Positions 25,893 through 58,800 of a stretch of 64,000 bases of DNA are shown here, one piece after another. The stretch comes from Plumapathes pennacea. Lineage: Eukaryota; Cnidaria; Anthozoa; Antipatharia; Myriopathidae. Numbering within the stretch: position 1 is the stretch's first letter; every line of letters begins with the position of its first letter. The stretch spans positions 12,310,001 to 12,374,000 of the forward strand of contig OZ038466.1 of assembly GCA_964036295.1 (NCBI GenBank), given 5' to 3'. Both the position numbers and the translations under genes were made by a program. A model generated the notes under the pieces. The model saw nothing but the letters and a program-made list of their open reading frames with translations, did no database searches and was not told the DNA's origin.

Positions 25893-28104
25893 ATGCGAGC
25901 GCCTAAAGTTTCGCGGGTTCTTTTTGTTGCCATTTCTTTCGTTTTCGTTTGGATGTCGTTGAAGATGGTATTCGAAACGCAGAGCGGTGAGTCTTATTTT
26001 AACGTTTTCCATCGCCAACACTGTAAAATAATTAGTAAACCAGCTCCATGACTCTTGACAACCAAGCCTTTTCCCCTGCGGTCAGTGCACCTCATTCTTT
26101 AACCCATAATTCCTTTTTTTGCTCCGACGAACGGCTAGTGCTCGAAACGTCAGCTTCCAATTCTCAGGTCTAGGTTTCAAACATCGATCCTTAGTCGATT
26201 AATCGATTTGTTATATACGTCTTTCTCCACGCCGATGCAAGCAAAATCTAGTTCCCCTTCAGTGCTAGTTTTCGATTATAAAATGATATGTTTGTCCAGT
26301 GGTCATCTGGGTGCGATTCAAAATACTACTGCTGTCGGTGACTGACCCATAAGCGGTATCATCTTCATAAATGATGGCATTTATGTCTCTGCTCGCTGCT
26401 ATCATAATTAGTCAGGTTTTGCGTTCAGGATCAGATCGTATGCACATGATTTTAGTGCGTTTTCTTGTGCTTCAGAGATACCAGAATATAGCCTGGTTCT
26501 CCATGGCGACTCGAGGGTTTCTCAAGAAAATGTTTGACTGAAACAAGTTATTGTGTGCGTGGCTTAAGCATTGCGACGGATCAAGTCGTGCTCTTCACCC
26601 AGATTTTACTACTGGCCTTTCACTAAGTAGGATCTGGAAGAAATCGCACATCAGAAAAATCTCCGAGAAAAACTTCAGTGGCAATGTGAAAGACATCTGA
26701 AAATTCACTACGTTCAAATGCTAAGTAATTTTTGTCCAAATTAAACCCAACAATAACGTTTTCTGGTGAGTTTTGACCTGACGGCTTGCCGTTGACAGTA
26801 AAAATAGTTCAATTTGAAAATGACTTTCCACTAGTCTATTCCCAAGTTCTATATTCAGCTCTCAATGATACTTTTTGGCATACGCTTTGTAAAGCAGCTA
26901 CCTGATGAATATAATTGCTACACTTTTCTTTGTGATCAGAAACAACGGACCAATTGAATGTTTTGTTGAATGTTGCTACCAGCAAAAGGAAACATTACGG
27001 AAAGGAATGTTTTATTGTGACGTCAGTTGACGTCAGCTCGGGTGACATCACTGTTATCGGTATTCCCACACTGGAGCCACTGCCACTAAGCCAAATGCGC
27101 CTGCAGTATAGAAGCGGTCATTCGAGCGTCCATACAGTTCAGACTGCGCTTGTAGTGTTATGTTTTTTTCCGGCATATATATTAATAAAACCCGGGTTCC
27201 TATTTTCTCCCTTCCAGGTGAATCTGATGTGAAGAATCAAATTTATCGCCGAGATCAAGTAAGTTTCAGTCAGAATAAGCTCGCGTTTACAGAATTGCAA
27301 CAACAAGACATGGAAGCAGTGCAAGAAAAAAGAAGGAGGCAACTTAAAGATTTCTGTATCAGCAAAAACCTCACCGAACCAGTTTTCGGAAAAAAGATCC
27401 CTGACTTGATGGTGGACGAAAAAGACAAGATATTGTTGTGTGTCACTTATAAAGTAGCATCAAGGCAACTCAAAAGAGTCATAGCAGCCCTGACGGACGT
27501 GAAAATAAGGAGATACGCACCGAGAGGTCTGTTCAAGTGGTTCAACCTTTACACAAACGGCGAACGAGAGCACATGGCCAAAACGTATTTCAAATTCCTC
27601 TTTGTCCGCGAGCCTTTGGAGCGACTCCTGTCAGGATTTCTCGATAAGTTCTACCGTGAGCCCAATCCATTCTATCGATTAGGCTATGGACGGAAAATCA
27701 TCGAGAGGTATCGCGAAAATCCTTCCCAGGAATCTCTCGAAAAAGGAAACGATGTGACATTTGACGAATTCACGCAGTTTATACTCGATGGGAACCGGAA
27801 CGAGCATTGGGATAGATACTATAAGCGTTGTCATCCTTGCGCGCTTGACTACGACTTCATTGGCTATTTTGAAAATCTTCAAGAAGAATTACCTTACGCG
27901 TTGCAAGCCGCTGGAGTGAAAGACGTCCCCATGCAGATTCCTTACGTGACGCATAACACGTCATCTAGAGTGCAAATGTATTATTCGCAGCTTTCCAAAG
28001 AGAAGATTTTAAAGTTAGCAGAACTGTATAGTTTTGATTATGAGTTGTTTGGCTATCCGTTCCCAGGACCTTTGTATTCAGACCTGGTCGAGGACGAAGC
28101 GTGA
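25893..28104 (+). CDS. Carbohydrate sulfotransferase A (Sulfotransfer_2/CHST8-14 type), two exons
   Basis: join(25893-25986, 27218-28104), phase 1 junction, 326 residues. Residues about 8-27 form a type II Golgi signal anchor. The domain has a 5'-phosphosulfate loop region about 106-118 (CVTYKVASRQLKRV) and the 3'-phosphate-binding block at 160-172 (FVREPLERLLSGF), then the family's CHPC...YDF-GYFE block. Expected role: Golgi transfer of sulfate from PAPS to a glycan. The 5' loop is unusual: the family's P-K-V-A-C/S-T/S has Tyr for Pro and Arg at a Ser/Thr position, though the Lys is kept. Residues about 46-55 come from what is a splice donor and intron in the paralogue: the donor-like GTAAGT is still there but only about 34 nt separate it from the next acceptor-like CAG, so it must be read through. 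The start ATG follows ACC-TTGGGGGAGAACA, matched in copy B. Confidence 0.85.
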
Positions 28105-32100: not shown

Positions 32101-33481
32101 AAAAGACTTTGCATATTTCCAGGTGAAGCAAAAGTCTCTCACTTCCGTACCTTCAGACGTTGCGTCACCACAGGTAAGTCACATGATCTGCTAACGGTTG
32201 CTTAACGACTAAACTTTAGGAATAATTTTCCATAAAATAGAGCTGTTTGGTCTCGCGACACAGAGTGATCTTTCATTCTGCAACCAGAGATTCATCAGTC
32301 AATGTGTAGAATTTGGCAAATCACAGTTCTTTTTTAATGAGGATTGTCTAAAGGTTGAGGGCCGAGGGGATGTTGTTAATTAGTTATTTAGATGTTGGTA
32401 ATATTATTACATCCGATTTATAATGCTACATAAAGTGATCGATACCATAACTAATTTCTCAAAAAGAAGGGTCTTTAAGAAACAAACAAGACTACTAACG
32501 TTAGAAACTAGAAAATTCGTGCTACCCATACCTTTTTCCTGTTTACGTTTCTTGTCCCTTCGTATTATCATTTTACGTAAACCTCTCTCAGAATAAGATC
32601 GCATTTACTTTCAACAGTCAATTGAAACCGCTTTAAGTGAAGTTCCTTTGTTTCTCTTGCAGATACCAGAACTGCAACGTCAAGACATGGAAGCAGTGCA
32701 ACATAAAAGAAGGAAACAACTTAAAGATTTCTGTATCAGCAAAAACCTCACCGAACCAGTTTTCGGAAAAAAGATCCCCGACTTGATGGTGGACGAAAAA
32801 GACAAGATATTGTTGTGTGTCACTTATAAAGTAGCATCAAGGCAACTCAAAAGAGTCATAGCAGCCCTGACGGACGTGAAAATAAGGAGATACGCACCGA
32901 GAGGTCTGTTCAAGTGGTTCAACCTTTACACAAACGGCGAACGAGAGCACATGGCCAAAACGTATTTCAAATTCCTCTTTGTCCGCGAGCCTTTGGAGCG
33001 ACTCCTGTCAGGATTTCTCGATAAGTTCTACCGGGAACCCCATCCCCAATATCGATTAAGCTACGGACGGAAAATCATCGAGAGGTATCGCGAAAATCCT
33101 TCCCAGGAATCTCTCGAAAAAGGAAACGACGTGACATTTGACGAATTCACGCAGTTTATACTCGATGGAAACCGAGACGAGCATTGGGATAGATACTATA
33201 AGCGTTGTCATCCTTGCGCGCTTGACTACGACTTCATTGGCTATTTTGAAAATTTTCAAGAAGAATTACCTTACGCGTTGCAAGCCGCTGGAGTGAAAGA
33301 CGTCCCCATGCAGATTCCTTACGTGACGCACAACACGTCATCTAGAGTGCAAATGTATTATTCGCAGCTTTCCAAAGAGAAGATTTTCAAGTTAGCAGAA
33401 CTGTATAGTTATGACTATGGGTTGTTTGGCTATCCTTTCCCAGGCCCCTTGTATTCAGACCTAGTCGGGGACGAAGCGTGA
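29117..33481 (+). CDS. Carbohydrate sulfotransferase B, five exons
   Basis: join(29117-29237, 30877-30917, 31361-31399, 32123-32173, 32663-33481), all GT-AG, phases consistent, 356 residues. Signal anchor about 17-34. The catalytic domain is in the last exon, with the same FVREPLERLLSGF block and the same odd TYKVAS loop as copy A. The first exon has 27 extra bases after ATG (nine residues, starting PFTAAACRR) relative to copy A. Exons 3 and 4 encode a stem-region linker and are duplicates of each other (ACTTCC...GCGTTACCACAA|gtaagt versus ACTTCC...GCGTCACCACAG|gtaagt). The last exon differs from copy A at only about a dozen residues, with over 200 bases (from about 32805) apparently identical, while exon 1 and introns are clearly diverged. 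Likely a Golgi glycan sulfotransferase; substrate unknown. Confidence 0.85.
31444..31720. mobile_element. MITE with 20-bp perfect terminal repeats in sulfotransferase B intron 3
   Basis: Left end TAACATGCATACAATAATTT, right end its exact complement at 31701-31720. Left inner sequence CTGCATTCTGATTGGCTGA. A relative with an internal deletion lies at 55392-55507. No transposase frame. Confidence 0.75.
31728..31812. repeat. 85-bp hairpin adjoining the MITE
   Basis: GTAATCACATGATTTCTCGTG at the left pairs with the right end CACTCGAAATCATGCGATTAC, with GGAATAAAT/ATTTATTCC inside. The right arm plus CCTATACTAATT recurs at 55463-55507 attached to the same MITE family, so it is probably one composite element spanning 31444-31825. 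Confidence 0.65.
31914..31936. repeat. Poly-C run (about 23)
   Basis: An uninterrupted C run inside sulfotransferase B intron 3. Similar runs lie near 33831-33846 and 49477-49496. Run lengths in such tracts are unreliable in most sequencing. Confidence 0.8.
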
Positions 33482-34846: not shown

Positions 34847-37800
34847 TTAATCAAACTCTTCGGTCGGTGGCTTCGATTCATTCTTTGTGTCTGAAGTGTC
34901 CTCTTCAGTCTTGTTAACATCGGGATCCTGTGAGGTTCCCGCTTCGGAGGGATCCGCAGCTGCCTTCTCAGAGGGCATCTTCTCCAGTGGGCTCTTCTGT
35001 GAGGGATCCACATCCTGAGGGGCCTGGCTGTGTTGTCGTTGGGACACGGGGGACTCCGATTCATCGGCCGAGTTGCCGTTTTCTCCTTCGGCCTCCTCTT
35101 GCTCCTGTAAGAGGGAGATTTATTTTTATTATTCGCTTAATCTGAATTAACGATCGCGCTGTTGTTGTCGTTGTTGTTGTTGTTGTTTGTTTGTTTGTTT
35201 TTTTTTTTTTTAACAATTGGTCTTATCATACAAAATAGAAAACTGGCCACAGCAACAATCTTCGCCACACAAAATTATACAATATGTTTTCCATAGTTTC
35301 GCATTACATCGGTCAACTTATATCTATTAATTTATTGTTTAATGTTAATCCTCTAAAGATATATAGGGGAGGGGAGGGGGAGGGGGAAGGTTGATAGAGA
35401 TTATGTACCAGTCAGTTTAACAGGTCACAAGGCTGTGTTTCCTTTGTAATGATTGAATGTTTCACTCGAGTCGAGCGAGGAAAAGTGCGATCACAAAGCC
35501 ACAATATGAAACGGTATGAATCAGTACCTCTTCTGGAAACAACTCGCAGGCTTTGGCGAGCGTCACACGTGCGCTGTTGGATCTCTCCAGGAAGTATCTA
35601 CGAGAAAACGAAACAATGCTTCAGAGCCACTTGTGCAAAGGACGTGAGGTCCACGAGACAATTGCTAAACTGAAAGAAACCTTGCTTATCACACGTCGTG
35701 TAAGGTAACCTGGTCTGCAAGCTTACGAAAGCTGAGTATTTTAGCGTTCTAAACGGCACCAAAGGCCCTTTGATCGGAAAAATAATTTTGGTTTAGTTGG
35801 ATCAAACTGCACGGAAAAACAATTAATTTTTAACACCGCTGCACGGACCGAGCACATCCGTACCCCCTTAGGCCCGTTTCAACCGTCGCGCCAATGCCGT
35901 GCCGAACTCAGTGCAAATTAGTTCAAACAAAGGATTTTGCTCATTTGCATTGAGTTCGGCACAGCAGTGGCGCGACGTTTGAAACGGGCCTTAGATACTA
36001 ATCTTATCCATCAATCCCTGATCATAACTAGAATTCTCCCAACCATTCATAAATGAAATGTAATGCACAGTCAAGTACAATTTGCCAAGTCCCCCGTTTG
36101 CACTGTAGATGCTATGTAGTCGAGTTGTAATATCAACGCATTTCTCGTCACTTACCCGTTAGACGCCTCGTTTGAAGGGCTTGGGGGCGACCAGTTATTG
36201 TACGCGTACGACGAGCCAGTGTTGTACGGTCTCTGCAAAACAGCAAACGAACGACACGCGACGTATGTTTTGAAATGGCGTGAACAAGGGACGCAAGTCT
36301 GACAAGATGATTCAGTGGCCATATATGGGCAAGTCTCGGTCATTTCTCAAAACAGTTATTTGTTATTTGGTGACCAGAACGTCCTTGGTCGAAAAATAAC
36401 ATTAACCTCCCCAGAAGTGGTCTCATAACTGCTGTGTATTTAGAGTAATCGAGTATTGATTTTAACTTGGGCAACTAAAACATGAAAACCAGACGCCTTA
36501 CCCTATCCAGTTCTTCTCCCAGCCACTCCACCGCCCAGCCCCATTTTCTCTTCAGATCCGGGGCACTCAACATGACGTGGTATGCAAGTGGGCAGCTGTG
36601 GACAGAAACGAACAAATTTCCGATCACCTCGTCTTTCTCATCTATCTGACTTCTTTCAAGAACTCTGTTCTATTTTCTATGACTTCTTCTTTTCTACATC
36701 TTCCTTAAAAAATGTTCAAGCCTCGTGCCACACTGCACATCTGGACCGATAACAACTTGACTCACCCACTGAACAGAGCCACCATGAACTTGATACATTG
36801 ATAAGCCCTCTTCTGGTAGTGATTCTTTGAGCGCTGAATCGTCTCAAACAGACCTTCTTTGTCTTCAGGAATCCCTGGCAATAGCACGACACGCTGTTAC
36901 ATTGACATCTAATAACAATCCCAACTGCTAACAACATGCACGCACAGATTACAGGTCAGATAACGGGTCACTGGCAGCTACATCTTCACCTAGTCAATCC
37001 TCGTTTGCTTTGACGAGGGACTAACACTTGAAATGGCAGCTAATCGTTGATCTGATCAAGCGACATCGCAGACTTCTTACAAAGGCAAAGCTCAAAACGT
37101 CACCTTGTTCGTCCAACTTCCATAGTGTTGAAATAACAATTCCAAGCAAATTCCAAACTATCACATCTATTTCCAAAATATTTTCAGAAGGATTCCACAT
37201 ATTTCCATATGTCTAAGCAATAAAAACATTTCATGGCAGCGAATTGAACAAATCTGAAACCAGCTATTTTTTTCAAGACATTGCACAGCCTTTTGTTGTA
37301 TACCAAGGAAGAAGCCCAATTTCACCAGTGGTTTCACAGAGATAAGTTTGTCATTGCATCTGATTGGAAGCAGATTTAAAGAGTAACGGAAGAAGACCCA
37401 TCATCAAAGAGTCCAGTACAAGGACAACTCTGTAATGGACTGTTAAGGAAATTCAACACACGTGTGAATGTGCTTTGTCAGCATATGTGTGATCAGTTCA
37501 GGGTGTTTTTACCTCTGAGTGTGTTGTGAATTCTATGACTTTGCCAGGAGTCCTGAATCAACAACATTTGGTGTAACAACTCCAGATACGGCTTTAACTC
37601 GTACGTGTAGGAGTACGCCACCTGAGAAAAGCGCAAAAATAAGTTAACAGTGAACAAATAAATAAGGTGATAATAATAATAAAAATATTGATAATTATGC
37701 CTAAATTACACAAGAGACAGAGAATACAACACTGGAAGCTTTACCGTGAAATAATACCACTCGTTTTTAAATAACAGTATGTTTCACTTGGAAGTGTTAG

Positions 37801-40800
37801 AGTTAACTTCCAACAGTAAACATGCACGAGCTCATACGTGCAGTGATGAAAAGGTCAGTAGAACACTACGTAAGGGTACTAACAGATTGCAATTGTCTGA
37901 TATAGATGCATCTGAAAAGACCTAATGCTTCCTGTACTTGTTAATTATTAGTTAGCTAGGACGGAGGGTTAACACTCGACATATCCATAACAATGATATG
38001 TTGATAAAATCTGTTTCACACCAAAACCAGTTCTTGTTGGAATGCCAACTGGCCTTTTTTTTTTGTTAATTTCGAGCCCTGCTGGGACAAGCATCGTAAT
38101 GCTTATTATAATCTGCTGATGAATATCCACTCTGTCTGGATGAAACAATTCTAATTACCATAACAGTTGGCTCAAAAATAAAGCTTTCTGGCATAGATAT
38201 CGCCCCACCAAGACACTTGCCTGCCATAACAGCTCACTCAGCACTGAACGGGAGAAATGTGGGTTTTCGTAAGAGCAGAACTGCAAAGCAACGACAGAGA
38301 AGTAGATTTAACACCACCACCACCACAACATTTTCTGTTCTAGAAGGTATTCTTCTGATAGCCCTGAAAAGTCAATTCTATTTCAATTTCTTTCCGAGCT
38401 CTGAGAGGTCTCTTGTACAGAAAGAAGAACTTGTGTTTGAAAAAGTTTGAAAAGGGAACTTGATTCAGCTATAAATTCTCTTTGAGCTATCCATGCATTT
38501 TATCCAAAAAATAGTTAGAAGAATAGGTGTCTATTGGCTGAATAAACGTACCACGTCAGAAGTTCACATTTCTCTTCAAACGACTTGTACAATTCTTAAA
38601 GAAAATCTTATGAATTGCAAGGTCAGGGAAAGACGTTCCTCACCTTGAGAAGTTTTAACGTCTCCTCGGACGCAGTGCTGTCCTCCACGATTTTCTTTAG
38701 ATACCTACAGTAGAAGAATGAGAAGTGTTTCAATCCACATTAGCTCTTTACATTCAACCCCGCGACAACCCAAACAAGCTAGCCCAAATTATTTGCAGAT
38801 GTCATTGACACGAGTAAAAGATTATAGGCTGTGTCCTCTGAGCGCAGCATCAACCGTAACGCCACAGGTTATGCTGTCGTACATGCAAGCAGTACTGTCT
38901 GTGTTCACTGACAGACCTGCCGGCCAAATCAGTAAACATTTACACGTGTAGTTTTTTCAAGTTACTATTCAAACACCACCACACAGGTGAAGGTCTCAGA
39001 TGCATTATAGATACAGTTGTATGAGGTTATGGTACTGGATTAAAATGCGTTTTAACGTGTAGAGCAAATGGTTCAGTATACACTTGTAAATGTTTTATTG
39101 AGGTAAAACCCTTACGTACGTTGTCTTATTAAAGAGGAGATCTCCCACAACAGGGGGGAGTTCAGCAAGTGGTTGTCCTCCTTCGAGGAATGGATTTGGC
39201 TTCGGAGTGCCCTAAGAGGTAAGGGAACTAATTAGAAAGTATAACAAACTGCATGACCCAGCACAGCACATCGCACCACAAGTCTACACACCTTAACCCA
39301 AGACACAAAAGGCATTGTACAAATGTATCCTAATCCACCAACATCGCCACACTAGCTGACATCACAGGAAACCATGTATTACAAACAACCCCTCCATACA
39401 CAGACACAGACACACACAACACCAAAAGGTGATAGCGAAATATCTCTATCAGAGAACAAATTCTAACCTCATACGACACACACTGCTTGTCTAAACTACC
39501 TAATCTTTGCTCCAACTGTGCAATCTAAAAAGATGAACTTCAACTGTTATTAATTCTTCAACTTGGCCGCGCAACCAAGGCCGCATCAAAGCATTGAAAT
39601 GGCTTGCTACACTACAAACCAACAACGCAACACACACAAAACGTTAAAATATACGCTGTTATTTGCACTCGTAAAACGAGAAAGAGACTGACGTTTGCAC
39701 AACAGGGGATAGTAGCTCGCTACATCTGACCAAAGGAGCATAGAAACATGAACAGTCTGAAACAACAGAGAAAAGTTGACAAATTTGCTTTTCTTGTTTT
39801 GTTTGTTTGCTTACCTTTGATGTATGCATTCTAGAGGAGACATCACAACAGCGGACCAGTTGGGACACTACAGCGTAGAGCTTGCCCAGCTCGGCGTACT
39901 GATAGCGGATTGGAGGACCAGGCCCATCATCCATTGCTACTAGCATAAAAGTTGCAGGTACACCCAACTGAAGCAGTTGTTGTTTCTGTGCAGCAAGAAC
40001 GTTAACTGTTAGTATAGAGGTACCACAAAATGAATGTTTGTATCATGTTTGGTGCTTTAAAAGACCACATTTGTACCACCATCATTGCGATCTCTGTACA
40101 AGAAGTACATTAACTCGTAGTAAAGGTGCTATGGTTGTCCTACACAACATGACTTGAACAAACTAGATACTTGAAACACCAACATTCATCATCTCTGTAC
40201 AAGAAGTACATCACTGTTAGTGGAGGTCTTGGGATTGTGGTACGCAACATGAATTGTTTAATCAAACACTGCTGACAGACTGTATACTAACACCAACATG
40301 TGTCATCTCTGTAGCAAGTACATTGACGGATTGACGGTTAAAGGAGGCTGGGGTTGTGATACACACCATTCGTTTAGACAAACACGTCTAACAGAATACA
40401 GTCAACTCCCTCTTAATCCCTTCACTCCCAAGTTCAAAATACAGATTCCCCCAACCTTTCAAGAAGGAAATGTATGGGTGATGTAGTGAGAATTGATAGT
40501 TTAATCATCTTTCACCTGAACAAGGTATCAAAAACCAAACTCTCCTTACTGTATGACATATCTCTGGTTAGAAACTGAAGGAGAAAGTTGAAGTTGATCA
40601 CTCTTGGGAGTGAAAGGGTTAACGGATACTCCTCCAAGACTGACACTTCTCTAACGTACACCTGGACTCGGTTTTTCAAAGCACGATTAGGCTAATCCTG
40701 GATTAGGTGTAAACTTTATTGTCATTTATAAGCCTGAAAACGTGAAGGTTTTGTCCTGCAGCGATTTCCTTGATACGTTTTCAGCTAAAACAAGTTTTTT

Positions 40801-43800
40801 AATCCATATTTGAACAAAACCCTGCAGTTTATCGGCAGAGAGGTCGAGAGAAAGAATTTCGTTAATCCTGGATTAGCTTAATCGGCTTTCGAACAACCGG
40901 GCCGTGGTAGGAGCGGTCCCTGCCGTTTCTTCAGTCATTTACCCTAACCGAACTCTCTTTAAAACGGACGACTCTCTAAAATGGACAATTAGAGCTTATC
41001 CTGAGGGTGAACGTCTTAGAAGGAGTTGACTGTATAATACACCTGTGTAACACAACACTTGTTTTCTCTGTACCTACTGTTTATGGAGGACGTGTTGGGG
41101 GTTGCAGTACACACCATAAATGTTTCTGTTGTGTTGTGTATACCTAACAGACTATAAACTCGTGCTAACCTCTGGCGCACCAAGCCCTGCATACATGAGG
41201 AAGAAATGGAAGTACTGCTGCAGATGACGCCCGTGTTCTGGCACTTCTTTCTTGAGCAAGTTCAAAACTGCTTTGAGAATATGGTCACTCAGACTCGCAT
41301 TCTCGTCCAAGCCTGCAAAACAGAATAACTTAGTTTTACGCCACCACTTCTGAGGCCACGACCATTTGGCTTGTAATGTTTTGTTTGCATCTAGAAATGA
41401 GTAAATAAGTGCGAGACTGAATTTGGTTCCCGATACGAAAAATGTAATAACTCGATGGTAAGATAGGTACGTAGCACTTTCACTTAAAAAACTAATCTTC
41501 TTCTCGAACGAGTCAGGTGGAAATAGATTACTAATTCGTCTTTTGCATGGTTAAGAGGCCCCCTTACCTACAGGACTCAGTTGTTCAAGGCAGGATTATG
41601 CTAATCCTGGATTAAGGTTAAACTTTGCTTTAGTATAGAAACGGAAATATTTCGCTCACAACACAACCTCCCTGATATTCTGAGTCAAGGCAACCTTTTT
41701 AGTTGATCTTTGATCAATACCCTGTGGGGCTTGCTGCCAGGGGGCTAAGAGAATAATTTAGCTAATCTTTGATAAGCAACGAGCTTAACCCAGGACAGTA
41801 TAACTATGTACAATAAAATAATAAAACTCAGGATAACCTGACTCGTTCGGGTGAATACAAAACCAGCCGTCAACAAAGCAAGCGTACATTAAGTACCGAA
41901 TAACCACTGAACAATTCTGATCATAACAATAATACCGACAATCATTTTATCACACCTTTAACTATGGCTGGATCGGTTCCTTCTGGATACGGAAAACACG
42001 GGCCATCCTGGCGTGCAAAGTGTGCAAGGAACACCAAGATTTTGGCAAACGCATTTCGCACCTTGAGGAAACAAACAAGACAATGATCCATAAACCGTTT
42101 AGCGATCGATTAATTATTAATACAGACGATCATGCACTAATTGTATTCGATAGAATTGTAATGTCTGTAAACGTCTCCTTTCTTCTTGCCAAGTACAAGT
42201 AAAGCTGCTGTAGTCACTGTTGGAGTCGCCGGTCTTGTCGTTGTTGATTTAGTTATTGAAGTCGTTGTCATCGTCGTCGTCGTTGTTGTTGTTGTTGTTG
42301 TCGTCATCATAATCGTCATTGCTGTTATTGTTGTTGCACAAGACGCCAAAATACAAACAACGTACCTCTGCACTGGGACATTCCAGAAGGTATTCTGAGA
42401 AGCGGTCTATGTTATTAAACAAGCAGTTCTTGGAAAACCACAACCGTGCTTTCGTGCTGGGTCTCAGCAAACAGCACACTGCGTCATACCACTCATTAGC
42501 TGGACCCCTGTGTGAAAGGCGACAACGTCAAGAACTTAGTTGATCGACAGACACAAGATAGTTGATTCGTGGAAGAATAAGATTCGAATCACAGATATTG
42601 TCTTTTCTTAGAAAAAAGACTGGTGCTCATGTTATAAAACATGAGCAGAGTTTACATCTTGCCTCTACATACGAAGAACATTTATGAACATTTAGGCATA
42701 CAACACCAATGTTCTCCAAAAAAAATATCTTCATTTGCGCTCAGGGCGTGCGGGTTTGGGGGAAGGGCTATTCTGAATTAGGAAAAGCGGCGCCGGTTCG
42801 TTTAAACTTTTGGCTTGAAGCTGCCAGAGAGAAAATAATAAAAAAGAATCTGAAATAGAACTTTAGGAAATGCAAGCAACTGTTCCAGTTACTTCTATTC
42901 CGGAATATACCAAAAACATAAACAGCTATCCTAATATAACATAACGTGCAATCTGCTCAAACAATCTATTACAATGTACTCATTAAAAGCTTTTATTTGA
43001 GTGCTCACAGGTTTCAGTTGACAGTTTAAGAACTGCAGGTTTTCAACGTTAAGTCAAACTGAAGGGCTATAAAAATCGCCTTTTCTTTCCCAAAAAGTGG
43101 AATGGTGTTCATGTTTACAAAACCGTAAACAGTAGCAATAAATGCGTGCCCTCACCTGACAGCCTTCTTGGTGTGAAAACCCGTCGTGAAAAGGAACTTG
43201 GATAACAGCTGGATGCTTATCATCGTCAACGATTCGGTGTCGGGCTGAAAGACAATCGCAAGTTAAAAGCTATCCTTTCCACAAAATACATACATACTTT
43301 ATTTATTTATACACGGTAAAAAAACATCAGTCTTATAAAACAGATTACAATAAAATGTTTAACGATAAAAGAACTGGTTTACATGTTTGCCGTGTGCGAA
43401 TCCGATGATGAAAAGTATTGATCAACGCCCCTTTTGAAACTGGAGAGGGAATCAAGATTTATTATTGCGCTTGGAAAACTATTCCATAAAATGGCCCCCC
43501 TGTAACTGATGCTAGGGCTAATTTATTTTGCGCGTTTCGTAAGTGATATCCTGTGAATAATCTGCCATTCACGGATGGCATCCTTGGCATCCTTGAACGA
43601 CTTACATTCACTCTGTGGTTTTATCTGCTTTGTTATGAGTGGCTCGGTGAGCAAGCGAGAATCTGGGTGACTGTCTGCCCGGCTGACTGACTGATAAGTG
43701 TCTCAGCAAGCAAGGAATTCAGTAAGGGAATGAGTGAGTAGAAAGACCGACTGTGTGACTGAGCAAATGGCTGAGCGACTAAGGGAACGAGAAAGACTTA

Positions 43801-46800
43801 CCCCAATTTCAACGTTTGCATTCGCTGTTGCTAATTTTCTCATGAACTGAAAATATTCTGGACTAAACTGGGTGCGATTGTGCAGGAAGTTCACATTCTG
43901 CTTCCGCACAGCTCGATCGATGACTGGAGGCATCTTGTGATCTGAAGACGAATTAGTACGATCAAAATAAATCTGATTCAAAGAAAACAGCTAATGCAGT
44001 TCAGGATTAGTGCTATAACATTCTTGTCAAAAATGAGGGTAAAGAAATAACCGTACATTACAATTTGGCTCCCCCTCTCAAAATGTTATTAGCGAAACCT
44101 CTCATAACCACAGCATCCACCCTTGAGGCTTGCCGTTTGAGCACAACCAGTGATTTTCAAAGGAAGGAGTAACTCCTTTGCAGAAACACTGATCGGATAC
44201 AATACTAGCACACGTAATCAGACGTGCAACAAGACAAAGGGTTGATTTTTCACAACTCGAGTTGTTATTCAGTTAAGAAAGCTGCAGTATTTGATATTGG
44301 TTGTGATTCAAAGCTGGACCCCATGCAACCTCGTTTAGGCTTTCCTTATGGTGACACATTCCCATAAGCAACCACCGCACAAACAAGGAAAAATCTGCTT
44401 CTTGTGCAACAGTAAGGTCAATCGTATATCATAGATCCTCTACGAATAACAGGTCAGCTAATGTAGACCCCACAATTTTATGCCTTTAAGTCCGGAGTTC
44501 AAAATAAAAATTCTTATTACCACTCAAGAAGAAACATGTATGAGTGATGTAGTGAAAATTCAAAGCTGGATCAGTTTTAATCCGAGCATGCCAAGTTCTC
44601 ATCTCCGACGAGAGGCTGAAGGAGAATTCGACGTTGATCACTCGACGTAAAAGCGTTAACAACTTGTTCACACAAATCACCAGATGTTATCAAATGAAAA
44701 AAAGTAAATCAGCCTGTTAGAAGCCACAGGGTGCACGCTTCGTTCACTTACGTTTATCCAAGTCAATTTTTCGGTTGGAGTCCACAATGTCTAGTCGCTC
44801 GTAAAACAAGATGTATGCATTCCACCATCTCTTCTGCCGGCGATATGACATTCTGTACGATGAAGTGAAAACAAACTTGTAAAGCAATCCGGAGTAAACA
44901 TGTGTGGGCTCTACAAACATGTCTAAGAAACACTAATAAATGGGTCCAGCTGTTCGAAGCTCGATTAAGCTAATTCAGGAATATCCTAATTCTTTCTCTC
45001 CTTGGTGAATAAAATGTTAAGTTTCGGTAAAACAAAACAACAACTGCTGAAAACAGCTGAAAAGCTGATGTTAGCTGAATTTTCAATTAAACTTTGTTTG
45101 AGTTAATATGTCAGTATTCAGGCTTAGACTTGATTTACCTGATCTAGAACTTATGTAACGTTTTATGTACAGCATTGTATGCAATTTAGGTAATCATGCT
45201 TTGAACAACTGTTCCCTGGATAAAAAAACAACCTAACACAAATTCTGCAGTGATAGGGAAGATAAACAAGTAGGCAAAAAGAACACATTGAAAGCATACA
45301 TGTGTGAGTGAGTAAATACGTTTGTTAGTGGGTGGGTGGGTCATTGAGTGAGTGGGTCACTGAGTGGGTCGATGAATAAATGACTGATTGAATGAATGAA
45401 CGAGTAAGCCAGTGAGTAAGTAGGAACAGGTGGTCGAGTGAGTGATTAAGTAAGCAAAGAGTGGGTGAGTCGTTGAGTTAGTAAGTAAGTAAGTGGTTGG
45501 GCGTGTTAGTGAGTCAGTGAGTAAGTGAGTAAGTGAGTGTTGAGCGTTGTTTTACCTCTTTAGCATGTGATCAAACACTTCGCCCATGTACTCGCCACCA
45601 AAACACTGCGTTTTCATCTCCTGCAAGAAACCACACAATCATCATGTGGGTTAAAAGAGTTAATACACGCACCAGTGGAGCGTGAGAGAATCAAGGAGGC
45701 GGCCTACTGTACCTCGTCGTCATCCATCCGACACTCGGACACCTCTCCATCATCGAATTTGTACCACTGCGGGGATTCTCTTAAACACGACCTGAAATAA
45801 AACCACACCAGTTTCATCTGAGGACTCCGCATACAACCTTTGTTACACTTCACATTTCCCTCCCCCCCCTATCGTAACACCCACAGGTATTAAAAATAAA
45901 AATAAAAATAAAATAAAAATAAAAAATAAAAAAAAACACCTAATAGATAATTGTAATTTGATAATGGTCATTCTCTTCGCCAAATTGCCAAATAAAAAGC
46001 TGAAGGTTGCATGTGACCAAACAAATGAAAACTATCAATGAATACATTCTGATAGCAGTGGAGTTGGTGTTGTTGTTGTTGTTGTTGTTGTTGCTGTCTT
46101 TGGACAGACAAGCGTAAGAGTGAAAGAAGTCATATATAGACAGAGCCGGCGGCTGGCCTGGGCATACCTTTGTAAGATGTAGGCGTAGTAGTGACCTCCA
46201 CTGGCCTGTCCACTGTGCACCAGGATGCCCACTAGTCTGTACTTGGTGCTCTGTTCCTCTTTCATGGGCTCGCTATCGGTCTTCTCGGGATCCAGATCGT
46301 TTTCTAACGTCTCTCCTGTCGCAGGAAGCCCGTAAATTTGCATTATCGAGTAGGATTAAATCTTAAAGTTTCGTTGTTTAATTTCGAATGTTATGCAGAT
46401 GATTCAAGCGTAACCTGTCACAGGTTCTGAGATACTGAAAGTAAGACGCAGAAAAAAAATGATGCGCAGAAATTGCTTTTTTTCCCCTGCGACTTGCGGT
46501 CAGTAAACAGACTAAATCAAGCGCTACACACTGGTTTAACTGCATCCTAGTCATACCTTGACGTTTGGCTAAGCCTTCTTCAGTGAATGGCTCCATTTCG
46601 ATCTCTCGGGGAAACTCGAAGTAGTCATTGAACTTCACTGCACATTCCCTGTGAGGGAAACAGAAGTGTTCAGAAAGACGTTCAGAGTTTCGTAAAGAAA
46701 CTCCAGATGACGTGACAGAAAGTCAGCAACATAACCTAATGAAGGATGAAGAAACTATAGTGTGCTGCATCGAAATCTTAAATGTGCACAAGCTTCCTTT

Positions 46801-49800
46801 ATGACCATTAATTTGGGTCCAAAAGTGCGGCACGCGTGAAGTCGACATCTCGCGTCCTTTGGATCACCGAAAGAAACTGGGCTTTCAAGTCAAAAACCAA
46901 CAGTAAAGCTTTAAGTGAGGAAACCCTTCGACCGAGATACATCCCGGAGACAAGGACAAGCGGCACTGAAAACTCATGTGCCTGACATCAAACTCTATAA
47001 TAGATATACACACACAAAGTATCTCAGGCCTCTTCATAACCTAATGCAGCATTTTGTTTTCATTGTTCTAGATGTGTAAATAATAAATGCTTATTTCTTG
47101 GAAGTCAATCCCTGACTCACCTCTCCCAGTCATAGTCGAAGCGTTTGAGCTGAATTGCCATGATTCGAGGGAGACTCTTGATACACAAACGTTTCACGGT
47201 GTCGACCTAAGCAACAACAGGTCAACAAGTCTCAAATACGTGAACGTAGGGCAGGGGGGGAGGGAGGGGGGAGTCAAGTGAATCATTCGTCATCTGTGCT
47301 TATCGACTGATGCCTATGCAAGTTCAATATGTTATCAACACACCTTCTTGTCGCACTTTTCACAGTGGTACGCATTAGCTCCCTCCAGCAGATCCCCCTT
47401 GACAAACTGCTCCATAGCTTCCAACAGGTTGTGATGGTTTCTGATGTCCACGTTCAACGCAATGAAAGGCGCCTCGCGAGAAAACCTAAAAATAAGCGAA
47501 AAAACCTTACTATTGTAATAACCCTTATACTGAGCTGATTGCTTTAGTATTTGCAAAAAAACAATAGAAAAGCAAAAACAACAACAACAAACAACAAACT
47601 AGACAAATTATCACATGAGAATGTACTCATCCAACGCAACAGCTTTCATTTGAATTGTTACGCTGTTGTTTACACATGTTAAGTTATACATCTCAGTTTT
47701 GAAGGGGTGCATTTAATGTCGACTGCTTGACTGAAAGTAACTGTTATATATTCACATCACCTTGTAGTCGATTCAATCTACTGCACCAGCTGACTGACTG
47801 ACTGACTGACTGACTGAGAGTAACTGATTGTGAGTGAATAAATGAACGACTGTCTAACTGTAAGTATCAACATCACCTTAAGTTAATATAACTACTGGGG
47901 GGTACCAAATCAATGATAACTGATTCACTGATTGAATGACTAAGTGAATGTTAATATAATGAATGTCTGTCCAACTGACTTGGCATCCACATCAACTATT
48001 AACTGCTCCAATCTGATGAACTGACCAAATGACCAGCACTTACTGAATCATTCAAAAATGTATATAAAAGTGGAGGAATGAATAAATGAATACATGGCAA
48101 TACCTTACTCTACTTACCTATGTGGACAGTCTTTGCAGATTTTCTGATCAGAAAAGGTTCCACCCAGCACCTTGGTAAACATGGGTTCGAAGCCCAGAAA
48201 CTTCAAGCTCTCGTCCAGATTGTCGACCAGATTGTTGAAGAACTCCAAAGCATCGTGCTGCTCACGAAGGTTCACAGGCTCGCCCCACAACCTGGTAGGT
48301 AACACGAAAAGTAACATGAACATGCTTGCTATAGTTAACTTGCAGTCAAAAGTACCCTTAGAGCATAAGGGCGATGAGAAGCAAACTTCTCCTTGTGAAT
48401 AATGATATAGTATAACGTGGATAAATAGGCATGTGAACTCATAAACTCTCTAGCTATAAATTGTTCGGAATCAATCATTAGGCAGTTGAAAGGTTAGTCG
48501 GCTGCAGTCAACATTTTGAAACGTTTTCGACGCCAGGAAGAAATGTAAGTCAAATACCGCATTAACAAGCTGCTGTTATGTCAGAATTTGCCACTTTTAG
48601 TGTGTCGTGTGAGTCACGTCATGTGACTTTTCGCGAGAATACGGACTACCTAAACTGCATGTTGCCTGACGCAAAGGTCAAGCCAAACTTACTTGAACGT
48701 CTTCCAAAATCCTCGTGGCACGTGAAACTGCAGCCGACTCTGCGCCAGGTGTCCAAAGATGAACTGGATCTGTTTGAGAACGCTCAACTGGTAATCCTTC
48801 CTCTCCTGCTCCTTGTCTTTTTCCTTGGCTTCGGCGTCGTTGTCGTTGTCTCTGCTGTCTTCTGATTGGTAGCCTGTGTCTGTCGTGCTCTCGCTTTCCC
48901 CCTTCTCCTCGACCTCGCCGTTCAGCAGCTCCTCGTCCTCCTCCACCAGGGCTCCCTCAACGCCCAGGATGCCCTCACGAAGCTCCGGAATCATGAACAA
49001 CTGGACACCGAGCAAACAAGAGACAAACGTATGACACGTGCAGCGAGTGCGAGTAAGAGCAAGAAGAAACATTTAGAGACAGACAGATGGACAGACAAAT
49101 CGAGAGAGATGATTACGTGTGATAATAACGAGGTCTAGTGTGATTCCTTTCTTATAAAAACGAATTGTCATGTTCACGCAACTCAAACCCTTTGTTTGAA
49201 AGAGGCAACAGGCAACTCGGAAACGGCCTATTGTAAGTGAGTGAGAGAGAGAATACGTGTAACACATAAAGTTTTGAGAAGAGAGGGACCACCTAGAATG
49301 CATCAACCAAAGGTTTATATGAATATGCTGACCAGCGTAAAGAGTATGTTTGGCTGACATATAAAGCGTTAGGTTTACAAGGCTCTGGTCGGGAGGCTAA
49401 CGCTCGAAACGCCAGCCAACACATCGTGTACGGCGCTGCGTTCAGCAAATCTACATCACCCTTACGTTAATACATCCCCCCCCCCCCCCCCCCCCTGGGA
49501 AAACTAAACTTCATGGTGCAGATGGAGAGGGGCACAGATGTAAGGCGTACCTGCTGTATAACGGAGTTCATGTAGCAGGTGGCACCAGCATTCTTCAGAC
49601 CTACGTATCCCATGTAGGGACGGGGGCCAATTGGAGGCAAGTGCTCCCATTCCGTCAAAGGAGAGTCTTGTTCTGAAACGAAAACAAATGACGTGAGGTC
49701 TGATGCTCACATGAACGCGGTCGCTGCAGGGGGTCATGAAATGGATACTGCACTTTGCACTGTTCTGTTTTTGTTGTTGTTGGTTTTCTTTGCATCAAGT

Positions 49801-52800
49801 GATGAAGCAGTAATTCAGCATTCTAACACAGCATTCAGTGGAATGACTGGCCTGTCCTCCCGGTTTCACACTGGATCAGTGAACAGATCTTGAACATGCT
49901 GTACTCAGATCTTAATATCTTGGTTCCTGTTATGGGTACAGATTCATTGGCCCAAAGAGCACATTTGCATTACCTGAGCATATAGCCGTTTTCGCATGAC
50001 TGTCGAAAGTAACCGTGTGATTGCTTTGCTTTCCGATTGGTCCTAAGAAGTTTAGCAACATTCTTGGCCAATCAAGATAAACTAAACAGATACACCCTAC
50101 CTAATATCTTGGTACTCATGTTACAGTTACTAGAGCACACTCACCCAAACGGGCGCGCATGCGCATCTCATGACACTGCCTCTTTAATACCTGAAACACA
50201 TTTGTCCTTACCTGAGTAATACATACTACACAGCACATCGGACAGATACTGCATATTCTGTACACATCCTGTGCACAATGTGACAAGAAGATCAAAACCA
50301 GCAACGAGAGCTGACGGCGATGAACAGATGGGATTGACAGAGCTGCTCCACACCTCTTCTGCAACAGAAAGGGCGACTGATTCAATTACAGCAATCACAC
50401 ACTCAAGCATTACACAGCAAGTGTCCTGGGTCCGGTTGTAAAAAGCTTGATTATGTTATTCCTTCTCTAATAGGCTCTTTACACCTTAGATTTTTTTCAG
50501 TCACGTGGGAAATTTTTGGGTCATGTGACCTGTCTGGTGCAAAGGGCCTCTCCTCGGTCGTACATGCTTTTCTACAAGATATGACCATTTTAGTGGTTCT
50601 GGCAATAACGGGTATGCGGGGAGTCGAATAGCGTCAACCAAGAAGGGAACATTTGAACAGATCAACTTCGTAGAAAAGATGTGGTATAAAAAAATCTCGA
50701 AAGTCTTGTAAAGCTTTTGTTCACAAACCAAATAAACAGTTAAAATGTCAAGCTACTGCAAATGCAGTCCAACAATCCAACCAGGTCATTCTCCTGGTAT
50801 AATCAATGCTTCCGTGCCTCTTACCATTTCCATTTCTTGCATCGAGGATGATTTTTGAAGCAGGAAAAATGAAGTCCTCGACCAGTTCCTAAAACAAGGG
50901 TGACATAAGAAATTCTCAGAGATGGCCATACAGCATCCATAAAGAAATAGGAAGGTTCCCCATAGACTGTTCCGCTTACGGGCAGTTAAATCGTCTTTTA
51001 CTGTATTGTCGACAAGGTCAGGGTACATTCCTTCCTTCTTTCTTTCTGTCCGTCTTCCTGCCTAACTATCTACAATGTGTATCTGCACCTTGACTCACTC
51101 GACTCTCTTATTTGTTTGTGTCTAACAACGTTCACACCCCTCTCCCCACACTCGGCTATAAAGTTGTCACCAACACACCCGAGAAAACTAACAAATATAC
51201 TACAAATGTCCACACAACTCGCCAACATCAAAACCACGACCGATATAAACTACGAATGTCTACACAACTGGCCAACGTCAAAAGCAACGACCGATGTACC
51301 TTGATTAGGTTGGGACCCTCAGTTTTGCATCCAATAACGAACTTCTTCTGTGGCGACTGGAAGAACATAAGTTCTTTGGTAATTCCCAGGTGGCCCTCCA
51401 GCAGAGCTTCGTCCACGGGATAGCTCCCTTCCTCAGAAGCTAACACCAAATCCTACATACAAAACACAAGAACGAAAACCTCGTGTTGGTCGTGATCGTC
51501 CTGAGCGGAAGTCATCTTCAGGGTTAAGTCAACGAAAACTTAAGAAACAACCAAGCATAAACACAAACATGCGACGTTTTCGAATTGGTCCAAACAAGTG
51601 TAGTAGCATTATAGGCCAATCAGGGTCAAAAGCAAAACATGATTGCGATATTCTCACGCAAGAAAGCAATGGCAATGGCGTTTCCTCGCACTGCTACGTG
51701 GTCATGTCTATCTATTCCCCACATTGTCAGAGTGAGAATCATTGTATCTCGACCTTGTTGGACCAACACGAACTAGGAGCAACCAAACTTTTAAACTTCG
51801 ACCATTGTATCTCACCTTTGCTTTCTTGAGCCAGGCAATCTCGTTGTTGAGCAGAACATCAGCAGTAGGCAGAGGAGAGTGGTTGGTACAGGCTTGATTT
51901 AACAGTCTGCACAGCAGATTGAAAAATTCATGTGACGACTGTGGATGATCTTTAACTGTGTTCTGCAAGTGAAACAAAAAAATGAGTGAAATGAAGATAA
52001 AACAACACTACACTGCAAGGTGAATTAGCAGACCAATCGAAACACTACTGCACAGTTCATACCATAAGATGAATTTATACCATTTATAAAATAACCGATA
52101 ATACGCGCGTTCTGATTGGCTAAATAACCGTGTAAGATAAGAGTTTATTATATACATACTGAGACATACTCACGAAAAAGCCATATCGTAAAATTTCGTA
52201 CGCAAATGAGTTCTAGCCAATGAGAGGCCGCGAACGACGCTTTTCACACGTGAAAAAAATCGTTCGTCCAATCACAAGCTGCGAACGACGATTTTTCACT
52301 ACTTTTAAAGGGTTTCCCGGTCCCATCATAAATGTCTCAGTATGTATATAATAAACAGGAAACATCATGGAAAGTGCTTTGTACAGTTTTTATTCACTCG
52401 TTGTTTCGTATCATAAAACTCACTCGCTCGCAAAGCCTCGCTCGTTCGTTTTATGATACTTCACAACTCGTGAATAAAAACCGTACGCGCGCACTTTCCA
52501 TGAAGTAATCTCTATATATTACACGCTGACGTGATACGTGATGTATTTTATTGACTAATTATTTTATAAAAGAAATATATAACGCGTTCCGGTGTAATAT
52601 AGCCTCTTCTAAACACTTGGAGTAGTAATAATAGAGTAGTTAATAATTTTATGCTGACACGGCTCCTTGGAAGAGCACTTTATAGTTGTGATACAGTATC
52701 CCGTGGATAACTAAAGGCTTACTAACTTACTTACTGAAGAGAAGAGTAATGAAAAATATCAAACAACACACTACTTTACATACCGTAAGATGCGTGAAGA

Positions 52801-55800
52801 GAAGAGTAATGAAGAAGATCAAACAACACACTACTTTACATACCGTAAGATGAGTGAAGAGAAGAGTAATGAAGAAGATCAAACAACACACTACTTTACA
52901 TACCGTAAGATGAGTGAAGAGAAGAGTAATGAAGAAGATCAAACAACACACTACTTTACATACCGTAAGATGAGTGAAGAGAAGAGTAATGAAGAAGATC
53001 AAACAACACACTACTTTACATACCGTAAGATGCGTGAAGAGAAGAGTAATGAAGAAGATCAAACAACACACTACTTTACATACCGTAAGATGAGTGAAGA
53101 GAAGAGTAATGAAAAAGATCAAACAACACACTACTTTACATACCGTAAGATGCGTGAAGAGAAGAGTAATGAAAAAGATCAAACAACACACTACTTTACA
53201 TACCGTAAGATGCGTGAAGAGAAGAGTAATGAAGAAGATCATTGGTCTGTGGCCCTGTGAGCACCTGGTGGCCATGAGCATAAACTGCTCGTTTGCTGCA
53301 CACCGTATGGTCCTGAACAAAGAAAACACAATGAGGGCCTGATAATCTGATAATGGAGAAATGGAAAATGGGACGACGACATCAACAACAGGAAGAGATA
53401 AAAAATGCTTGAAGGTGCGGTCAACGCGCCCAATTTATGGTGCGGCACATAGAAGAAAGTGGACCACCGTTGCTCATTGTTCCATTTGAAATCATTTGAC
53501 GATATTTTTAAGGTTTCATACATCTTCGCAATCAGAAAATACCAGTATCATTAAATGGGACCACAAACAGCAAAGCTAAATTCAGATCGCGACTTGTAAA
53601 TGGAGATTTTTTTTTGCAACTTATGAGCAATTTAGGGCTGACTGAACACATCAGCGCCACTCACACTCCAAGAATTACCTGTTATGACACAAGATCAGCA
53701 CGTCAATGATGAAGCACTGCCATGACTTGTCCTTACTCAGGCTCTCTAGTGCACTGGGACAAAGGCTCAGGCAAACGCTGAGAACCTGTAAACAAAAACA
53801 AAAACAATAACAACAACAACAACGAGGTAGCTTGTTAACCCTTTCATCGTCAGATGTAAATAGTCCGTTTCCGAGTCGTCTTTTTCCTGCTTGTAAACGA
53901 GAATCAGCTTAAAATCTTTCAATTGAAGATTAGTTTTTTTACTTTACTCATCCGCTTCTTTTCATGCAAATACCACTTTCGTATGAAAAAGTTTTGCATT
54001 AAGCCTTGTTTTGAAACAGACGCAAAACGGCTTGTCGTGGTGACCCAGAGCGCTTATTTAATTTTGGTACCTCGAGGTGTGGGGGCTTATTGAAGACAGG
54101 GCGGTTGTTAGAATCATTACAGTATTTGAGTCAACGCAGAAAACTTCCACCTCCTGAACTTTCAAATGAAACCTGAAAAGGTGACACAATTCTAAAACCA
54201 AATTGCAGTAAGTGGAGTTTTTTTTTGTTGTTGTCGAGTTCTTTTTGTACAGTCATATTACGTCGCCGACATACAGAACAGCAAATACTCGTGAAATACT
54301 CTATATAAAGATTACACCATTGTTACCTCAAGAGCTTCTCTCGCGACACTAATGTCCTCTTTTTCGAGTCCCCTTGATGTGCCCTGAAACAGCAAATAAA
54401 GCTATCCGTTTGCTGTAAGGGTGGGAGGTGGGGAAAATAGCCAAATCTGACCGTAATTGCAGCAACTTATCACATATTTTCAACTTTCCTTCACCAAATT
54501 TATTTCCTTCTAAATGTCATTTTCTGACCTAAATGGCTCTTCCTGATCTTGAAAAAAACCGAGTCAAGGAAAAGTAATAGAAGCATTTTAAGGCTTGAAA
54601 TACTTCTGTGACTTTCCCCAGACCTCAAGTTTGACACTCAAAACATCGGCGCCATAACTCTTAGCATATCCACATGAACTTTCGGTTAAGTCCATTGTTT
54701 GACTGGTTACATGTCCTGTAAGCTCACAGGCCACCATGCTATGCGCGTCCAGCAATTTCAGTGGGCATTTTCATATCACGCGAAACGGGATTTCAAGTAC
54801 TTTCGTGTTTTGTCCGCTTACTCGTGAGAAAAAAGGGCACCCCAATCAGCAAAATCTGCTCATAAACAACACACAAGGACTAACAAGGATTAGAGAACGC
54901 ATTGAGCAAATAAGTCAAGTCACTTCCACTGAAACCCAAGTGATTGGGGTGCCTGTGTTTTGACTAATCCAAAAGCAATAAGAACAACAAGTTTCGACAG
55001 TTATCCAAAACTGTCCTAAATATAACGTAATTCAATTTACTTCAAGAGTTCTCGTGGGAAGTAGCATTACATGCGAATACATTACTTACCTTTTCATAGG
55101 TCCTGTGAATCTCAGTCTCTTCATTTGGACTACCCAAGAGATGAAAAACTCCTCCCGCAGAGGCCCAGGCAAGCTTCTGCACCGACTTGATGATTGTCAG
55201 GTCAGGAACTGGCTTAGTGAGCTGAAAGTTCAACACAGCTCGATTACTGCCGTACTTTAAACAACCGGTCACACTGAACGCAATGCGTCAGGAAGCAACT
55301 GCACAGAATATCACGATAAAAATCAGCTTTTAGTGAAAGAAATTACTGCTAAAAGCAACTGCACGAAACCTATCGATGACATTAGTTTGTTTATTATATA
55401 ATAACATGCGTACACTAATTTCTGCATTCTGATTGGCAAATGCAATTTTGTGGTCTTGCTCATTTATTCCAAATTGCACTCGAAATCGTGCGATTACCTA
55501 TACTAATTGGAGTCACACGCACCGAGCGTAACACGACAGCTCATATCGCAGTGAAGCTTCACTCAAAGTGGAAGGAATCTTCATCAAAGTGAAGTGAAGG
55601 TTCATTTCACGTGAAAGGAAGTTGGACTCGAAGCGAAGCTTGTGTGCGCGTGCAGGATGAAAACTGACAAGAAAAGTGCAGTTGTTGGTATGTCGCGTCG
55701 CACTCAGTGTGAATAAGTCCTAACACGCACCTCTTTACCCATGAACTGGGCCAGCCCGACAGCCACGTTCCTCAGCATGCACTCGGAACTTGGGCTGGGG

Positions 55801-58800
55801 ATGTACTGTAGAGCTTGCTGTAGGATAACTGCCGCATTGTGAACACAGGCAGGGACGGCCTGAGGAGGACTAGACGAGTCTGTGGGGTGGATGGCGTTCG
55901 CTACCACTTGCACCTGAGCGTACCCCATGGCCGTGAAAAACAGCTTGGCAAGTTTGAGAACCGTCAGAAAAGCAGCCCTGCAACGTAACATATGCGACAT
56001 TGAGCACCTGGGCAAATCTATTTGAGCACAACAAGGTGACACTTGCCCTTAATGTTATTTACAGAACTACATGATTCGGTTTTTGATTCACTGACATAAA
56101 ACCAAAACTATATAGTTGTAGTTACGACTGCCCCAGCAGCATAACAGAGTAAAAACAATTTAAACCACCTGGGCCCAGTTTTGCAAAGCACGATTAGGCT
56201 AATCCTGGATTAGGTATAAATTTTCTGGCCTTATGTAAGCCTGAAAATGTGAAAGTTTCGTCCACAACGACTTTCTTGGTAACGTTTTAAGCTGGAAGGA
56301 GCTTTTTAATCCATCTTTGAACAAAACCCTGCAGGTTATTGGCAGAGAGGTCGAGAGAAAGAATTTCGTTAATCCAGGATTAGCTTAATCGACTTTCGAA
56401 AAACCGGGCCCTGTAAGCCAAGTAATTTAGGATTGGTGTTTCTTTCAATTAACAGACCATCGCAACTTGCTTGCGGTCGAACAGTTGCTTTTGCTCCTGA
56501 TTGGCTAAGAATGATCGCAAGACCAAAGAAGCCACACTATTTACTTTCGAAAATCAATCGAAAGCCGCTCAATATATACACAGTATCGGGTGTTATTCCA
56601 TACGTAGGATGCTACATATCAAACAACAAAGATGACTATTCAGACAGCGTCAGTCTTGTTTCCTTGGCAAAATCTTGTTTTAGCATCAGCACGACACTGG
56701 CATTTTCTCGAGCTATACTTCGTTTTACGATTTGAACAGCTTCACCTATCTGTAAATATAGGTCATCTTTTGACTCATACCTTTTTGTTATCACGTCAGC
56801 GTTTTGCAAAAACTCGGGTTTGGTGAGCATGCTTATCACACAATGCAGGCCGTCACTTCTTAGGAAATTCACCTGCTAAAGAAAAACAAGAAGTCTCCGT
56901 GAGAACACACGCAGTTGAACACAAGGTAAGGCCAGCTATCAGACACTATGTTACACACAAAGGTTAATGGCAACTGTAACCACGTGACTCAGACGTCCTC
57001 GTGCGTTTACTATATTTTTCCCCGGCAAATTACGGCGGCTTTATTGAAATTTTGTCGTGCCTTTGGAATTCCCTGAATGTGCTGACACGCATGAAATTCA
57101 GTGTAGCGCTCTGTTTCGCCCCAGTAAGACTATCGTTCAGTATTCTGTCCATTGTGACGAGTAGCATTTGCAATGCGAACATGTGCTCACGAAAGTGATG
57201 CATCAAAAAGTTGCAAAGATCGATCCATGTCAGGTCTCTCGCGTTTGAATATTCGATACCGGTTTATACTTGTGTGGTGACATATAACAACACCCCTACC
57301 TCCTTACAACGACAAGTAAACTCTGGCACTAACCAGACACCGGGATGCTAATCAAGATTTTACGCTATTCCTGTTTATATTAAAGACCTTTAAAATGTAT
57401 AAAACAAAACTTTGAACAAAACCTTTCCGTTCGTTTGACAACGTTTGAGAGAATGATTCAACTGGTTATCTGTTAGATTGCCAGCGCCGCATTGCATTAC
57501 CTGAACTCTTGCTACGTTCTCTTGTCCAATTCCAGCCGGCATCAACATGGAATACAACACCTGTACACAGACAATACACCAAACAAATGCAGCACGGTTA
57601 GATCACACACAAGCCTTCTGTACTGCACGAGTTAGACACCGAATTTAAAACTAACTGTACAAAATACTGAAGGTGCAGTATTATTATACATTATTGCAGT
57701 AGTGTGAATGGATAGATGCTTAATAAAGTGGAGCTCACTCCATATTTTTACACTTCGTGACGTAGCAGCATATGTACAGTTAGCTTCAGTGAATTTTAGA
57801 ATATTTCTATATCAGTAGATAATTAAAATAGATTTTAGATTTTTAACTGTTTGTTTGATTATTCTTATAATTGTTACACATTAGATGTTAGCTAGTAGAT
57901 TCGTGGACACGTGCGCGTTTTAACGAGTCCCTGACTCCTAGTCGTTATGTGTATAAATAAATGATTGATTGATTGAACATGTTATCCACAGTTGCGGAGC
58001 ACCTTTAGCACACTAGAATGGTCCAAATTAAATATTAAGGTCGGCTTTGGAGCATTCTTGGCCAATCAGGAACAAAAGCAAAGCCGATTGCGATCCTATC
58101 ACACAAGCAAACAGGTGGCGGTGGCGTTTTCTCGCACTCTTTTTCAACATAAAACCAAACGCAAACTATTTTGATTGGCCTCTGTGCTGAAAGTTTTTAC
58201 AGCCTGTGATTGCGGTGTAATTAACCTGGCTTTGGTTTTCGACAGTCTAACATCAAGACTAGCTTGTTAAGCTTAGCAAAAGATTAATACCACAAGAAAT
58301 TAGTACAGCATTCTTACCTCGAGATTATAAAGCACTTGAGTAGGGGAAGGGGTGAAAAATAATGAACTCAGTGGTGGCCAGCCATTTTCACCCTTTTCCT
58401 TGCAGATGTTTATTATTCTTTCACTGACATGGGTATCTGAAAAATGAGAGAAAAGATTGTTCTTAAAACAGCATTAGACGCAGTAATATTCAACTACGTA
58501 CCATCATCATTTTCATCACCAAACTATCAGCATCATGCACCAACATTCAACTATTATTACCACCAGTGACCACTATCACAATCAACAACAACAACAACCG
58601 TGATTACCACCATCATCATCATCATCATCATCAATAGGGCTGCTATAGCTCCTGGGAGTGGCCAAGTCAAGCTTTTGTCGAGCCATACTCTTCGTTTTAC
58701 TGAGTTCAAGTCCAACACAAGGGCAAGTCTCTGGACAGAAATATCACACACCACTCCCAATTTGCTGCGGACTGGTTGGGAGGACAAGGATCATGAGTTT

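Follow-up and report, generated by a model that had tools for sequence, protein, structure and literature searches.

Eight copies of a weak 5′ splice site in a 60-bp tandem array at the end of a USP9X exon of the coral Plumapathes pennacea: a probably passive minisatellite

Introduction

The minisatellite of the human gene IFI6 (6-16, G1P3) has a unit of 12 nt in about 26 copies, the isoforms differ by 4 residues, and the products of the different donors stay in frame; that it provides multiple splice donors was reportedly described by Turri, Cuin and Porter in 1995. A second line of thought, reportedly put forward by Zhuo et al. in 2007, relates introns and alternative splicing to tandem duplication. 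In IFI6, two downstream repeat units act as donors, three mRNA species are formed, and the form of 130 residues predominates (PMC4526556), and PMC2891723 describes introns and alternative splicing arising from the tandem duplication of proto-splice sites.

How a spliceosome chooses among competing donors has been approached with human minigenes, and that work (PMC9225289) gives the following picture: (i) where the strong donors were identical and the introns 365 nt long, splicing took place from the upstream one only; (ii) when the donors were weakened, the upstream preference was kept in smaller exons, while larger exons were mostly skipped; (iii) according to Carranza and colleagues, intron definition gives way to exon definition at around 250 nt; (iv) and finally, over all human events the downstream site wins in about 60%, but at near-equal strength it is the upstream site that wins in 60%. 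The coral locus presented here belongs beside these systems, in that an array covers the end of an exon with a donor in each of its units (8 of 8), and the products of the different donors would all be in frame.

Results

The window, that is, the whole stretch of 64,000 nucleotides that was analyzed, contains on its minus strand the gene that carries the array, a single-copy USP9X orthologue of this hexacoral. The modelled part (34877..58386, minus strand) was built by tblastn and spliced alignment with a partly approximate human sequence as guide, and has 39 exons, four of which are doubtful (two small ones of 15 and 30 nt, another whose donor is unusual, and the final exon); additional N-terminal exons are located above 58386. 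The model includes a UCH domain (Pfam, 7.3e-55), a full-length USP9X match flanks the array on both sides, and together these place the gene in the USP9X/FAF-X family; the protein of the array region matches the human chain of PDB 7yxx (8.3e-59, as a sequence match only), as well as USP9X/FAF-X from corals, anemones and bilaterians. When this array-region protein was compared with the genome, all four matches fell within this gene, whereas the catalytic region gave eight, four of them within it. The other four (on C5 near 16.43 Mb, and on C1) have only 35–65% identity, they are probably other ubiquitin proteases, and a second USP9X copy acting as a buffer was rejected. As the array region is single in the genome, a working product has to come from this gene.

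The array itself occupies 52735..53241 and consists of eight full units and a partial ninth (TRF: period 60, 8.4 copies, 98% matches, 0% indels), and among the 17 TRF rows for the window it alone has a period of at least 20, at least 4 copies and at least 90% matches. Each unit joins 36 nt of the exon end (ATCTTC...CTTACG) to 24 nt of the intron start (gtatgt...tttg). When the units are cut in frame from 53239 downwards and translated, eight are complete, each encoding one block of 20 residues, and the partial one (25 nt, 52735..52759) runs into gtaagtaagtt. The donor segment, CATCTTACG/gtatgt (the slash marking the exon–intron border), is identical in 8 of 8 units, and a pattern search of the 290 Mb genome allowing up to two mismatches returned these eight places and none elsewhere; the idea that the unit is a dispersed repeat was likewise discarded, the genome search having given no further copy. 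Arrays of such a kind are nevertheless common in this genome, given that, by the same thresholds, four were present in 200 kb sampled as twenty 10-kb pieces from contigs C1–C4 only (in five TRF rows, as one of the arrays has two).

The units, the partial one included, vary at three sites (TTC or TTT, ACG or ACT, ATC or ATA), all of them silent, for which the chance under class-matched substitution is 0.36 × 0.16 × 0.17, or about 1%. This could be a sign that the downstream units are translated, or it could be that new units are copied from the first unit, in which it is mainly the silent changes that persist; three variable sites, spotted post hoc, are without the power to decide between translated and untranslated units.

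The exon that ends at the first donor (ACG/gtatgt) extends over 53204..53312 in the spliced alignment (109 nt), and the shared downstream partner of all the donors is the next exon, at 51816..51962, whose acceptor scores 12.07 bits. The seven further donors, within 52784..53203, have as their last exon bases 53144, 53084, 53024, 52964, 52904, 52844 and 52784, and all score 5.21 bits. From 53204 to 52784, each donor joined to 51962 leaves the frame open (8 of 8), so that the choice of donor would add 0–7 blocks of 20 residues to USP9X, the frame being open from the exon through every unit, with a stop soon after the array. That every donor fits the downstream exon follows from 60 being a multiple of three and from a piece of intron without a stop. 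The one-in-three chance of a multiple of three can be multiplied by 18/38, the share of model introns whose first 24 nt are open in phase (doubtful introns and the array intron counted), or by 0.65, the share of random intron 24-mers that are open, and therefore 16–22% of such arrays, about one in five or six, would be in frame and open accidentally. The openness of the array is thus less special than its appearance suggests. For the same kind of reason, the unit being divisible by three in length and free of stops on the plus strand, an open frame of 181 residues (52715–53260) is to be expected there, and is present.

These results agree with an earlier note on this DNA in its identification of the gene as USP9X, which the UCH domain, the PDB 7yxx match and the homologues support alike, in its placing of a real 60-bp array over the exon end and its donor, and in its position of the donors and arithmetic of the frame; the eight-fold identity that it described for the donor stands, and the units themselves differ at the three silent sites.

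With the donor table of the gene (33 donors, made without the doubtful exons, the array exon and one GC donor), the array donor is weak, only one of the 33 others being lower, which makes it the second lowest of 34. Three GT sites outside the array outscore it, at 53265 in the exon and at 52063 and 52250 in the intron, and the first of them (6.39 bits), which proximity and score by themselves would likewise favor and whose use would lose 61 nt and break the frame, looks unused; the table is accordingly a limited guide. The partial unit runs out into a ninth donor-like site at 52734 (TCA/gtaagt, in full TCTTCA/gtaagt), which is out of frame and, joined to 51962, would give K-H-S-stop; the table scores it at −0.60 bits, and its pairing with U1 is −5.3 kcal/mol vs −5.2 for the array donors. 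Overlapping it is an acceptor-like site at 52733 (5.94 bits) that outscores three of the 35 gene acceptors and leads straight into TAA. This is the one fair site among the AG sites scored between 52600 and 53312, whose ten best include none from a full unit, and therefore a new intron inside the array is not expected.

The 109-nt exon has the strongest acceptor of the gene (ttcttgttcag-type, 13.37 bits, first of 35 in a table without the two small exons, the first and the last), and the introns that flank it measure 366 and 1241 nt, the latter being the longest of 38. Were the last donor (52784) used, the exon would reach 529 nt, in a model with a maximum of 308 nt. On the side of the protein, the homologues listed (the best 120 of 423) all cover the junction, and in none of the 120 is there an indel within 10 residues of it, in such a way that the first donor yields the conserved length, which the earlier note had given as the vertebrate one. 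The predicted position of the insert is therefore a stretch that is indel-free from corals to mammals, and the block itself is hydrophobic, with a mean hydropathy of 2.18; over 19 residues the array reaches 2.49 vs a maximum of 1.64 elsewhere in the modelled protein. The insert matched 0 proteins at E ≤ 0.001 among 1496 candidates in a protein database that lacks the USP9X of this species (best identity 66%).

Concerning RNA structure, nothing in the window matched an Rfam family at the gathering thresholds, and a fold that hides the donors was set aside, as the minus-strand segment 53312–52700 folds no better than its shuffles (z = +1.70; the fold is equally good or better in 19 of 20 shuffles).

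The surroundings of the array hold other features. The same intron contains an element at 52143–52356 with perfect 25-nt inverted ends; its genome search gave 792 candidates, and the 40 that were scored (its own copy included) are all nearly full-length at a rounded identity of 100%, which suggests, on sequence likeness, that a MITE-like element spread in a very recent burst. A tandem duplication (51195–51295, 50 bp, 2.0 copies, TRF) begins about 5 nt into the intron after the USP9X donor at 51300. Farther away, the plus-strand frames 27112–28104 and 32597–33481 have nearly identical C-terminal halves and resemble, on inspection by eye, a pair of sulfotransferase-type genes that duplicated recently, and the minus-strand frames 5337–7589 and 11930–14185, of 750 and 751 residues and similar to each other, look by eye like intronless genes of TRIM/NHL type. 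In the rest of the assembly, contig C24 is the mitochondrial genome (17,711 bp), with its COX1 split into separate pieces, between which there is a frame of 250 residues that resembles, on visual inspection, an intron endonuclease. The ND6 of this contig is 99% identical, over 91% of the query, to an entry of Tylopathes sp., a genus of Antipathidae (Antipatharia) in the NCBI taxonomy, and 93% identical to Leiopathes, which makes a black coral very probable as the source.

Discussion

The reading that we prefer, and to which we would give a probability of about 70%, is that the first donor (53204) dominates, its neighbors being minor at most, and that the array is mostly passive and does not have a regulatory part. 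Its history and present working could have been as follows: (i) the ordinary turnover of minisatellites would have turned a stretch of 60 bp across the exon–intron border into a tandem series; (ii) one weak 5′ splice site thereby became eight, as can be read directly from the units; (iii) the strong acceptor of the 109-nt exon would lead the spliceosome to define this exon and to pair it mainly with 53204, giving the ancestral protein; (iv) and finally, the other seven copies would be mostly intronic passengers, among which the second or third donor may see low-frequency use, adding 20 or 40 residues with the frame kept. This tolerance of the frame, and not a regulatory role, would be the likely reason for which selection has left the array in place.

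In this respect the length-tunable splice module that the earlier note proposed is not supported, considering the absence of indels around the junction in all 120 homologues listed (the best of 423), the exon-definition setting with its strong acceptor and long introns, the weak donor and the hydrophobic block; what remains of that interpretation is the gene, the donor position, the arithmetic of the frame and the length given by the first donor. The dominance of the first donor has in turn its own points against it, namely that the rule comes from human cells, that before matching for strength the downstream site wins about 60% of events, that larger exons with weak donors are skipped, and that the differences between units are silent. 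To apply a donor rule from human minigenes to a coral is an extrapolation, and some downstream donors may be in use, as described for the IFI6 minisatellite.

If several donors were used at comparable rates, the result would be a ladder of USP9X forms with 0–7 extra blocks, in which the length of the allele sets the ladder. Eight identical donors in frame, the silent variation of the units and a donor so weak that saturation is not expected at any copy all speak in favor of this, but the indel-free position in the 120 homologues (the best of 423), the hydrophobic insert and the exon-definition setting make it unlikely; the insert without a protein match adds little to this, since the USP9X of the species is absent from the database. 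Doubtful also, and equally unlikely, is the more demanding proposal that the downstream donors are appreciably used and regulated, such that the eight-step ladder would be real, the array length would set the USP9X length spectra of individuals, and the silent differences would record selection on translated repeats.

Competing donors can raise the rate of splicing, and the repeated weak donors could jointly make splicing more efficient, or serve as spares upon mutation of the first one, the protein being little affected. A donor that is the second lowest of 34 is what such a role would call for, but the strong acceptor may be enough by itself, and we consider this explanation quite improbable. 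Still harder to sustain, and very unlikely in our estimation, is the main use of the donor nearest the acceptor (52784), with an array that is coding and supplies about 140 extra residues: the open frame throughout, the silent unit differences and an intron-centred rule of proximity (downstream choice in about 60% over all human events, PMC9225289) would be in its favor, but it requires a 529-nt exon that exceeds every exon of the model, and 140 very hydrophobic residues inside a stretch free of indels. An assembly artefact is scarcely credible, for although tandem repeats are commonly prone to assembly error, this array amounts to 507 bp only in a 290 Mb assembly of 24 contigs, and its unit variants follow a non-periodic order, unlike those of a looped read.

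Eight identical and evenly spaced in-frame donors, with one acceptor and in a conserved single-copy gene, constitute a natural experiment on the choice of 5′ splice site, which could separate exon-centred from intron-centred proximity outside mammals, with junction counts as the direct readout; the array would also illustrate how a gene can remain intact with a repeat lying over a splice site that it needs.

Comparison with known systems

No literature on this coral locus was found among open-licence papers. As in the minigenes of PMC9225289, the competition is among identical donors for a single acceptor downstream, with long introns on both sides; the difference is that the minigenes have two designed donors in human cells, whereas the coral has eight natural weak ones. 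With the duplication of proto-splice sites (PMC2891723) the array shares the tandem multiplication of splice signals and a length in multiples of three that tolerates alternative products, but here only the donor is multiplied.

The nearest likeness is with IFI6, where likewise a minisatellite at the end of an exon supplies several donors for one downstream exon. The two differ in that the coral unit has 60 bp, 36 nt of which are conserved coding sequence, and lies in the gene of a deubiquitinase, and in that the use of multiple donors, described for IFI6, is putative in the coral. By analogy with the donor use reported in PMC4526556, the coral array would represent the same arrangement as the IFI6 minisatellite, and one predominant form would be expected from it.
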